DNA of 64,000 nucleotides from Deltaproteobacteria bacterium (lineage in GTDB: Bacteria; Desulfobacterota; Desulfomonilia; UBA1062). This document shows positions 6,289 to 32,581 of this stretch, piece after piece. Each line of letters opens with the position of its first letter. Position 1 is the first letter of the stretch. The stretch lies in contig WFSG01000005.1 of assembly GCA_015486075.1 (NCBI GenBank), positions 186,001 to 250,000 of the forward strand. Direction: 5' to 3'. The notes beneath the pieces are model-generated. The model had not been told where the DNA came from and searched no databases. It saw nothing but the letters and a program-made list of their open reading frames with translations. The translations under genes and the position numbers were made by a program.

Positions 6289-7949
6289 TAGTTTGTCTTG
6301 GTGAGGATGAACTGCTAAGGCAATGCATTGGGTCTATACAAGACCACACTAACAATAGCGATTATGAGATTATAGTGGTTAATAATTCGCCTGATCCTAT
6401 CTCGGGAATGTATGTTGGCCCTGTAAGGGTGATAGAGAACGGCCATAATTTTGGGTTTGCAAGAGCGGTAAATAGGGGCATCCTTAGTTCTAGAGGCGAA
6501 TTTATAATGCTTCTAAATGCCGATACAAGGTTTATATCGGATGTGCTGGGCCCGGTAATGAGGTTTATGAAAGGTCATCCAAGTGCAGGTATTTGCGGTG
6601 TACAGTTAATTTTCCCCGATGGAAGACTGCAGAATTCCATTGATTTAATACCAGGAATAATAAGCCAGGTGATTAATAAATCCCTCCTTAAAATACTTTT
6701 TCCTGGCTCTTATCCCAGCAAGAGATCCAATCTTGATAGGCCCACTAAGGTACCTTCTGTTATAGGTGCGTGCATTATGATAAGAAGATCGGTTTTTGAC
6801 AAGGTAGGGCTTATGGACGAGGGATTCTTTTTTTACCTCGAGGAGACTGACCTTTGCAAGAGGGCGCGAGACAAAGGTTTCGAAGTCTGGCATCTACCAA
6901 GCGTAAGGGTAGTACATCACCAGGGTGCAAGCGCAAGACAACATGATGTGAGAAGAAAAGTAGAGTTCCAACGTTCCATGTACAGGTTTTTCTTAAAGCA
7001 CAGGGGTATTTTTGCTACTTTCCTACTCTACATGTTTACGGTCCTGAAACTTTTGATTGAGGTTGTAACCAATGCGCCTCTTTCTTTTAATTCTGGATCC
7101 AGGGCAAGGCTTAAGAGGTCGTTTTTACTACTAATGTGGCATTTGCTAGGTACACCCAGGGGATGGGGTCTTGAAGATATGAATAGCTTTTACAGGGTAA
7201 TAAAAAAGCGTGGGTACGCTTGGTTTATCAAAGATGGAACTGAGATACTAGAGGGCCTGGAAGATCCAGATGTATTAATTCAGGCAGATAATCTAGAAAC
7301 AGTTGCAAGATCAAGGACAGCCCTTGTGAAAGTAGGGTTTGTGCAGGGGTGTGGGAGTGTTTACATTAAGCAGTACCATTTCAAGGGTGTATTAGATGGC
7401 ATGAAAAATGTCTTCAGAAAGAGTAGGGCCCTGAAATCCTTCGAGGCAGCGATTAAGCTAGAGAATCTTGGTGTGGATACACCAAGGCCTGTTTTCTGTT
7501 GCGAGAGACGCGTTTGCCGTGTCTTGATAAAGTCATTCATAGCCACACAAGCCCTTGATGTACCTGACCTGATTAGTTATGCTCGATCTCAGGCAATGTG
7601 TAGAGGTGATTTTACGCTGGTTGCCTCGTTCGTACGGCGTATGCATGAAATGGGTATACTGAGCGTAGATCTAAAGGGAGATAACATCCTGTTTGACCGT
7701 GAAAAAAGACGGCTTTACCTCATAGACCTTGATAGGTTGAGGAGGAAAAGATTTCTTACATGGCGAGAGATTGCAAAGAACCTGAGCTATCTCTATGCAT
7801 CCTTTGAGAGCGACGTTCCTGGTGGCATGGATACCTGCTTTCTAGACGAGTATCTAAAAGGAAATCCCTACCTTGAGAAAAGGAAAAAAAAGATTTCAGA
7901 AATGATAGATAAGTATACAACTTTGAGATTAGCTCAGAGATACAATTAG
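6273..7949 (+). CDS. Fusion of GT2 glycosyltransferase and WaaP/Kdo-kinase-like domain
   Basis: N-term GT2 (IIIVCLGEDELLRQCIGSI, NADTRF, GFFFYLEETDLCKRA); C-term kinase-like SVDLKGDNILFDREKRRLYLIDLDRLRRKR. Confidence 0.82.
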   Translation: MVSIIIVCLGEDELLRQCIGSIQDHTNNSDYEIIVVNNSPDPISGMYVGPVRVIENGHNFGFARAVNRGILSSRGEFIMLLNADTRFISDVLGPVMRFMKGHPSAGICGVQLIFPDGRLQNSIDLIPGIISQVINKSLLKILFPGSYPSKRSNLDRPTKVPSVIGACIMIRRSVFDKVGLMDEGFFFYLEETDLCKRARDKGFEVWHLPSVRVVHHQGASARQHDVRRKVEFQRSMYRFFLKHRGIFATFLLYMFTVLKLLIEVVTNAPLSFNSGSRARLKRSFLLLMWHLLGTPRGWGLEDMNSFYRVIKKRGYAWFIKDGTEILEGLEDPDVLIQADNLETVARSRTALVKVGFVQGCGSVYIKQYHFKGVLDGMKNVFRKSRALKSFEAAIKLENLGVDTPRPVFCCERRVCRVLIKSFIATQALDVPDLISYARSQAMCRGDFTLVASFVRRMHEMGILSVDLKGDNILFDREKRRLYLIDLDRLRRKRFLTWREIAKNLSYLYASFESDVPGGMDTCFLDEYLKGNPYLEKRKKKISEMIDKYTTLRLAQRYN

Positions 7950-10955: not shown

Positions 10956-11184
10956 AAGTACAGCTTATCTAATGAAGACAAAGTTCAATGTTTAGCATGG
11001 GTTTATTCATATCTAGGTGCTTAAGATTGACAATATGTCTTGCTTTTATAGTGAACTGCCATTCATTTTGACAGTTTGTACACGAAAAACTGAAATCTTT
11101 GCTGGCGGGGTGTCAGGCTGTCAGTTTGTTACGTGCATGAGCACAATGTCTCTGTATAATCAGTATGTTACCCACCATGGTTTT

Positions 11185-11200
11185 TGGCACAGGGATTGCT
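11185..11200 (+). promoter_or_regulatory. Sigma-54 (-24/-12) promoter
   Basis: TGGCAC-AGGGA-TTGCT, matches TGGCAC-N5-TTGCW; about 40 bp before a start codon with good SD. Confidence 0.8.
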
Positions 11201-11240
11201 CTAATTAAGGATAGAAGACCAATAAATAGGAGGAAAGGCA

Positions 11241-11417
11241 ATGTTGGTGCTCTGGATAATCATTGGTTGCTTGTTTCTGACAGGCATTGGTATCAGATTC
11301 ATGTACAGAGTGCTAGGGCTTACGCCTGCCGAGGCCACGGCAATATACATACTGATACTGCTGTTGGTTGGTATTAATTCAGGGCCTGCCAGGCAGTGGA
11401 TAGCGCATCTATTTTGA
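11241..11417 (+). CDS. Small membrane protein (58 aa), unknown
   Basis: SD AGGAGG at 11228-11233; MLVLWIIIGCLFLTGIGIRFMYRVLGLTPAEATAIYILILLLVGINSGPARQWIAHLF*; two hydrophobic helices. Confidence 0.7.
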   Translation: MLVLWIIIGCLFLTGIGIRFMYRVLGLTPAEATAIYILILLLVGINSGPARQWIAHLF

Positions 11418-11505
11418 TGTGAGGGATTATGGGAACTTTGAAGTATTTCAGTTTCCCTGATCCTGCAGATAAGCTATGTATAATAGCTTAAAAGGAAGAT
11501 AGGTT

Positions 11506-11745
11506 ATGGTAAACAAGGATATTTTATCTAGGGTTTTCACCTTTAGGGTGGTAAGGATAAGTGCCTACGGCCTTGTACTGGTAGTCAGCTCTTTTGCAGG
11601 ACTCTACCTAGGTATTTATCTGGATCACGTTACTAACATGACACCCAATTTTACTCTTGTTGGTCTTATCCTGGGTATCGTTGTTGGGTTTAAGGGGTTT
11701 ATTGAAGAGACCTTGAGAGAGAGGAAGGAGGGGAAATCTTCGTGA
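11506..11745 (+). CDS. AtpZ/AtpI-like small membrane protein
   Basis: SSFAGLYLGIYLDHVTNMTPNFTLVGLILGIVVGFKGFIEETLRERK resembles the AtpZ/AtpI family. Confidence 0.65.
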   Translation: MVNKDILSRVFTFRVVRISAYGLVLVVSSFAGLYLGIYLDHVTNMTPNFTLVGLILGIVVGFKGFIEETLRERKEGKSS

Positions 11746-11894
11746 GCATCGTCTTCGTTGTGATAGGTATTGTATTCTTTTGCGCCATAACCTTTAGGTT
11801 TGCACTAAGGATGTTAAGGGATCCTGCCTATGCATATGCCAAGCATAAGCAAGGCAAGACTAACGCCCGTAAGGAACTTGAAAGATATTTATAA
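11742..11894 (+). CDS. Small single-TM protein (50 aa), unknown
   Basis: GTG start overlapping the upstream stop, SD GGAGGGG; VSIVFVVIGIVFFCAITFRFALRMLRDPAYAYAKHKQGKTNARKELERYL*. Confidence 0.6.
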   Translation: MSIVFVVIGIVFFCAITFRFALRMLRDPAYAYAKHKQGKTNARKELERYL

Positions 11895-11981
11895 AACAAG
11901 AAGCATAACTTCAATAGGCCAGATCGTATCCCTGAGACCTGGCCTTATGGTATTTGTTATATAGCCTTGTAGCTTTATTTG

Positions 11982-32565: not shown

Positions 32566-32581
32566 AGCAACAGTGGTGCCA
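32566..32581 (-). promoter_or_regulatory. Sigma-54 promoter upstream of amtB
   Basis: Minus strand TGGCAC-CACTG-TTGCT; in the nifA-amtB intergenic region. Confidence 0.72.

Follow-up and report, generated by a model that had tools for sequence, protein, structure and literature searches.

A family-wide cassette of small membrane proteins, one of them AtpZ-like, behind a conserved candidate sigma-54 promoter

The window analysed here, a stretch of 64,000 nucleotides from a Deltaproteobacteria bacterium, carries on its forward strand three adjacent genes for membrane proteins of 58, 79 and 50 amino acids, preceded by an elaborate control region. The initial annotation had seen here a group of tiny membrane proteins under sigma-54 control, among them an orphan AtpZ-like one, and this description is strongly supported by the conserved promoter and cassette order set out below; the three open reading frames lie where it had placed them and the exact −24/−12 element is present in the sequence. 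The full locus begins at about 11069, with the upstream activator sites, and not at 11185. Its features, in window coordinates, are as follows.

11069..11081, + strand: putative upstream activator site 1, TGACAGTTTGTAC, aligned in 48 promoters (site pair seen in the window)
11111..11123, + strand: second putative upstream activator site, TGTCAGGCTGTCA, spaced 42 bp from the first
11158..11170, + strand: putative IHF-like site, AATCAGTATGTTA, with one mismatch to the consensus WATCAANNNNTTR
11185..11200, + strand: sigma-54 −24/−12 element, TGGCACAGGGATTGCT, with a predicted transcription start at about 11211
11228..11233, + strand: Shine-Dalgarno sequence AGGAGG of the 58-aa gene, from sequence
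11241..11417, + strand: reading frame of the 58-aa two-helix membrane protein, ATG at 11241 (AlphaFold2 and dN/dS)
11506..11745, + strand: 79-aa AtpZ-like protein with two predicted helices (Pfam match to PF09527, ATPase_gene1)
11742..11894, + strand: 50-aa single-transmembrane protein, its frame with a GTG start and a 4-nt overlap with the AtpZ stop
11916..11945, + strand: inverted repeat AGGCCAG...CTGGCCT directly 3′ of the cassette, without a T-run, from sequence

Between the promoter element and the ATG lie 40 nt, which include the Shine-Dalgarno sequence. The inverted repeat, which was not scored as a terminator, is a possible 3′ end of the cassette.

Substitution patterns indicate that all three frames, which are conserved in relatives, are real genes under purifying selection. 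Compared with a sister species (L040), the 58-aa gene has codon-position differences of 4/0/22, a dN of 0.02–0.03 and a dS of 0.6–0.9 (dN/dS of around 0.03); the corresponding values are a dN of 0.10 and a dS of about 1.0 for the 79-aa gene (dN/dS of around 0.1) and a dN of 0.13 and a dS of 0.6–0.7 for the 50-aa gene (dN/dS of around 0.2). By hhalign, the transmembrane segment of the 50-aa protein matches the 58-aa family at helix 1 (93.6% probability, E = 2.1e-7). The cassette may therefore contain the same element one and a half times over.

The initial annotation had proposed looking for the peptides and their synteny in related genomes. In a tblastn-type search of 60 relatives, the 58-aa protein was found in about 21 of the 23 members of the family, at 55–95% identity and usually in one to four copies (rarely more), and in none of 36 genomes outside it at E < 1e-4. 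Order is retained as well: the 58-aa gene is followed almost always by the AtpZ-like gene and then usually by a third gene of 34–50 aa; in most of the copies with a called third gene, its start and the AtpZ stop share 4 nt. The family is known only from metagenome-assembled genomes (MAGs) and probably corresponds to GTDB UBA1062 of the Desulfomonilia; one MAG of UBA1062 has been proposed to be a potential syntrophic degrader of butyrate and long-chain fatty acids (PMC13248872). Across 396 genomes of the phylum, a 58-aa profile matched all sampled family members and one genome of another family (G194), in which the full cassette promoter is present too. A scan of 85,462 species returned 46 loci labelled as Deltaproteobacteria, Syntrophaceae or Thermodesulfobacteriota MAGs, bar one short Firmicutes contig that is probably misbinned.

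The tree of the 58-aa proteins is poorly resolved and has many genomes with one copy on each side, which suggests an old duplication of the gene. One genome has two cassette copies with identical 58-aa proteins (G007:C49 and G007:C56; L071, L072), suggesting a recent duplication, and in another (L079:1722-2089, G022:C202) two tandem 58-aa genes share a single sigma-54 promoter, and the next gene downstream encodes a holin-X-like domain (PF07332). Around the window cassette, a DegP/HtrA gene lies divergently upstream and is conserved within the genus only; neither DegP nor a cyclase was retained as a functional partner, because their synteny is genus-limited, except for the cyclase alone in one relative. 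The downstream neighbours, which by eye appear exporter-like, beta-lactamase-fold-like, glyoxalase-like and sensor-like, were rejected as an extension of the operon because they differ between lineages.

An exact match to the −24/−12 motif was not accepted as stand-alone evidence of a promoter: TGGCACN5TTGCW occurs four times genome-wide against three times for a reversed control, which is not above chance, and the case therefore rests on conservation. Nearly all of the 50 copies examined have a match to TGGCA[CT]N5TTG[CA] 34–50 nt upstream of the ATG, and an alignment of 48 upstream regions holds in register TTTTGNCANTTTGTCA, TTGCCANNNTGTCA, a WATCAANNNNTTR-like sequence, TGGCAY-N5-TTG and the ATG. 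Paired palindromic sites and TGGCAY-N5-TTG are common to all 48. The activator sites follow a family consensus of TGNCA-N3-TGNCA or TGACA-N3-TGTAC, and in 40 of the 40 promoters in which both match strictly their centres are 41–42 bp apart, about four helical turns, with both sites on the same face of the DNA; the 64-kb window has a single TGNCA-N3-TGNCA pair of this kind, at 11069 and 11111. The IHF consensus is WATCAANNNNTTR. Most of the 48 promoters have an IHF-like site at one common alignment position. The pattern of IHF site plus −24/−12 element was found in 19 of the 24 genomes of the family, and its reversed control had 0 matches. A profile of the whole promoter region matched 23 of the 24 at E up to 1e-5. 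Its strong matches are essentially only cassettes; those without complete genes that were checked lie at contig ends, one of which cuts the start of the 58-aa gene. In the genome to which the window belongs (G000), the whole element is found at two cassettes only. A sigma-54 promoter with two putative activator sites and a putative IHF site is thus strongly supported by comparative sequence evidence.

Because this complete switch is conserved and present, in one to several copies, in almost all genomes of the family, we regard the module as real: judged from its promoter and gene content, the cassette is an undescribed, putatively inducible membrane module distributed family-wide. That induction is predicted to be conditional follows from the sigma-54 promoter class together with the conserved activator and IHF-like sites. 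The genome encodes rpoN (C5:175726-176289) and has 13 strong matches to sigma-54 activators (PF00158). No activator gene was found adjoining the 58-aa cassettes and no paired sites at the activator loci scanned in this genome, so that neither adjacency nor such sites yielded a candidate. In the literature searched, we found no meaningful link between AtpZ and sigma-54, and none between sigma-54 activators and Syntrophus aciditrophicus. A separate exact sigma-54 element in the window (32566-32581, − strand) lies directly downstream of a sigma-54 activator gene and upstream of ammonium-transporter-like and PII-like genes.

The 79-aa protein scores 43.1 bits against PF09527 (gathering score 26.6), a family matched by all 31 of the cassette AtpZ proteins scanned, and 14.9 bits against NCBIfam TIGR02230, far below the cut-off of 46.7. 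Asp40 and Pro47 (D40 and P47) are invariant in the cassette AtpZ family; solved-structure and fold searches with the 79-aa protein gave no significant match. AtpI has been assigned a role in c-ring assembly and AtpZ a role involving Mg2+ (PMC4453477, PMC4154653). The window had been described as free of ATP synthase genes, and no a- or c-subunit gene was found in it; the cassette has none beside it and does not stand at the head of an atp operon. The annotation had also suggested checking whether an atp operon outside the window has AtpZ/AtpI genes of its own. There is one: contig C41 carries a complete F1Fo operon (c subunits identified by PF00137, the others by their sequence and order) with both genes at its head, and C22 carries a further Fo set of c, a, AtpI and AtpZ genes (L083:6139-7937, G000:C22), with no F1 genes seen in that stretch. 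Since the atp operon has its own AtpZ and AtpI, the window AtpZ is, by genomic context, an accessory paralogue and not the ATP synthase's own. A second cassette of the same genome, with its own promoter, lies at C22:18172-18593, about 5.5 kb from the extra Fo set; its 58-aa and AtpZ proteins are 66% and 60% identical to those of the window.

In the C41 operon, four hairpins are fused into one c subunit, with ion-binding residues E,Q,Q,Q (L298:8924-9904, G000:C41), and relatives (L308-L313) encode fused c subunits of 407–576 aa with one E followed by four or five Q, together with a separate single-hairpin c subunit with E nearby. From their sequences, such fused subunits would form a rotor with few ion sites and a low ion-to-ATP ratio. 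Stand-alone c-subunit genes at L066:1369-1815 (G000:C32) and L299 ~7076-7267 (G000:C21) each adjoin a predicted membrane sensor-like gene, and the one on C21 is followed by genes resembling an rnf operon.

A sister family of 91-aa proteins shares with the 58-aa protein a homologous C-terminal hairpin (hhalign E = 1.1e-5). It occurs in 21 of the 396 phylum genomes, in up to several copies each, with an AtpZ-like gene downstream in many copies. Among 29 upstream regions, 24 contain a sigma-54-like element and 18 an activator-like motif, AACRTTTCWTT (1% of shuffles in each case). Several genomes have a sigma-54 activator gene immediately upstream of the 91-aa gene. The 91-aa/AtpZ modules L238-L267 have a variant −12 box, TTTCA or TTCCT, not TTGC. 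In three genera (G000:C32, G005:C302, G012:C4), a 91-aa set is located 5.2–5.4 kb from a divergent stand-alone c-subunit gene; in G000 a histidine kinase and an activator lie between the two, and the activator in this position is conserved in the other genera. Of the genomic clues that such pairs have to do with the Fo sector, this proximity is the best.

On this basis we propose that an enhancer-binding protein would bind the paired sites, probably in response to a signal related to energy, ions or the envelope, that IHF would loop the promoter DNA and that sigma-54 RNA polymerase would then make a short mRNA from which the 58-aa, AtpZ-like and 50-aa proteins are translated together. These may assemble as one small inner-membrane complex. 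Through its AtpZ-type subunit, the complex would act on the Fo of the F1Fo-ATP synthase, helping to assemble or regulate it under certain conditions, in hosts whose genomes already contain several Fo gene sets. The regulatory anatomy is read from the DNA; the signal, the complex and its target are what we infer. We give this reading, an inducible accessory complex for the membrane sector of the ATP synthase or for ion balance, a probability of roughly 0.38. It is favoured by the second cassette near extra Fo genes and by the 91-aa modules near c-subunit genes; against it count the lack of atp genes near most 58-aa cassettes of relatives in the stretches examined, the failure to find an activator gene adjoining those cassettes and the score of the AtpZ-like protein far below the TIGR02230 cut-off. 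A more specific version, in which multi-copy, sigma-54-inducible complexes re-tune Fo (through c-ring assembly or the rotor) in an energy-limited, probably syntrophic host and each paralogous module is wired to a different enhancer-binding protein, is an unlikely one as it stands.

The main rival to the ATP-synthase reading is direct transport of divalent cations, in which the AtpZ-like protein and its two small partners would form, or help to form, a channel for Mg2+ or Ca2+ that is induced at ion shortage. AtpZ of Bacillus pseudofirmus has been reported to aid Mg2+ acquisition, and an evolutionary link between atpZ and mitochondrial calcium uniporters has been suggested (both in PMC4453477); Pfam names PF09527 a Ca2+/Mg2+ transporter, and the separation of the cassette from atp genes in most genomes fits such a role. 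However, clustering of neighbours found no Mg2+ or Ca2+ genes recurring beside the cassettes, and the sister 91-aa modules stand beside c-subunit genes in three genera. We consider cation uptake a tentative alternative, somewhat unlikely but to be taken seriously.

A phage-shock-protein (Psp)-like response to envelope stress, with small sigma-54-induced proteins stabilizing the membrane next to a DegP protease, would share the logic of promoter, activator and small inner-membrane proteins, and the divergent DegP/HtrA gene in the genus of the window might suggest envelope stress. It is rendered quite unlikely by the lack of any PF04012 (PspA) match in the genome itself, of any match between the three cassette proteins and the Psp families, and of DegP beside the cassette outside the genus.

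Improbable, too, is a reading of the 58-aa protein as a proteolipid of c-subunit type, with which the cassette would supply an additional or replacement rotor or ion-binding element. The protein is predicted to be a helical hairpin (residues 2–25 and 29–57; AlphaFold2, pLDDT 90.7), with Arg19, Glu31 and Asn46 (R19, E31 and N46) among the invariant residues of the family. The only two matches of its profile in the PDB are both ATP-synthase c subunits (E = 0.037 and 9.9), and Glu31 aligns with the ion-binding Glu of the better one. Comparison with c subunits by hhalign gave P = 0.0037 for the 58-aa and 0.0095 for the 91-aa family, and column shuffles reached the real score in 0–1 and 1–4 of 150 cases, respectively, which is suggestive although borderline. 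On the other side, no member matched PF00137 at E up to 1, the predicted position of Glu31 is in the first turn after the loop and not mid-helix as in c subunits, Foldseek returned no c subunit, and fold and solved-structure searches with the 58-aa protein gave nothing significant. Given the modelled position of Glu31 beside the loop and the lack of a Pfam c-subunit match, we do not call the protein a c subunit.

A selfish or toxic element of holin- or type-I-toxin-like peptides is extremely improbable. It is suggested by small hydrophobic proteins in several copies per genome and by a weak match between the 50-aa protein and a holin model (E = 0.034, far below the cut-off and rejected as an identification). 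Strong purifying selection, near-universal presence in the family and an apparently old duplication already speak against it, as does the elaborate promoter of host type that is intact in nearly all copies.

The cassette represents a so far undescribed regulon that is shared across the family. Its promoter is legible to the single base, from two candidate activator sites through an IHF-like site to the −24/−12 element, and its products, all shorter than about 90 aa, are missed by routine annotation. Should the AtpZ-like subunit act on Fo, it would place the ATP synthase under inducible control in organisms whose way of life is probably close to the energy limit. For the poorly understood AtpZ family, it offers a natural setting outside the atp operon with two defined partners.

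Among known systems, the AtpZ/AtpI proteins (PF09527) resemble the 79-aa protein in family score, above the gathering threshold, and in their two helices. Unlike those of atp operons, the cassette protein lies outside such an operon, behind a sigma-54 promoter, falls below the TIGR02230 cut-off, is paired with the 58-aa hairpin and usually a mini single-transmembrane protein, and occurs in several extra copies per genome. The Psp operon likewise produces small inner-membrane proteins under sigma-54 and an activator, whereas the cassette has no Psp homologue and its genome no PspA. The 91-aa plus AtpZ-like pair described above (families f1, f32, f67, f94 and f106) shares a homologous hairpin, an AtpZ-like gene downstream in many copies and a sigma-54-like promoter; it differs in the extra N-terminal leader of the 91-aa protein, its own activator-like motif and −12 box, an adjacent activator gene in several genomes and a wider phyletic spread. 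The orp operons of Desulfovibrio vulgaris Hildenborough are IHF-assisted sigma-54 operons of a sulfate reducer (PMC3897727) and share with the cassette a sigma-54 promoter with IHF involvement, predicted in the case of the cassette; they contain other genes, and the TGNCA-N3-TGNCA pair is, among the genomes searched, specific to the cassette.
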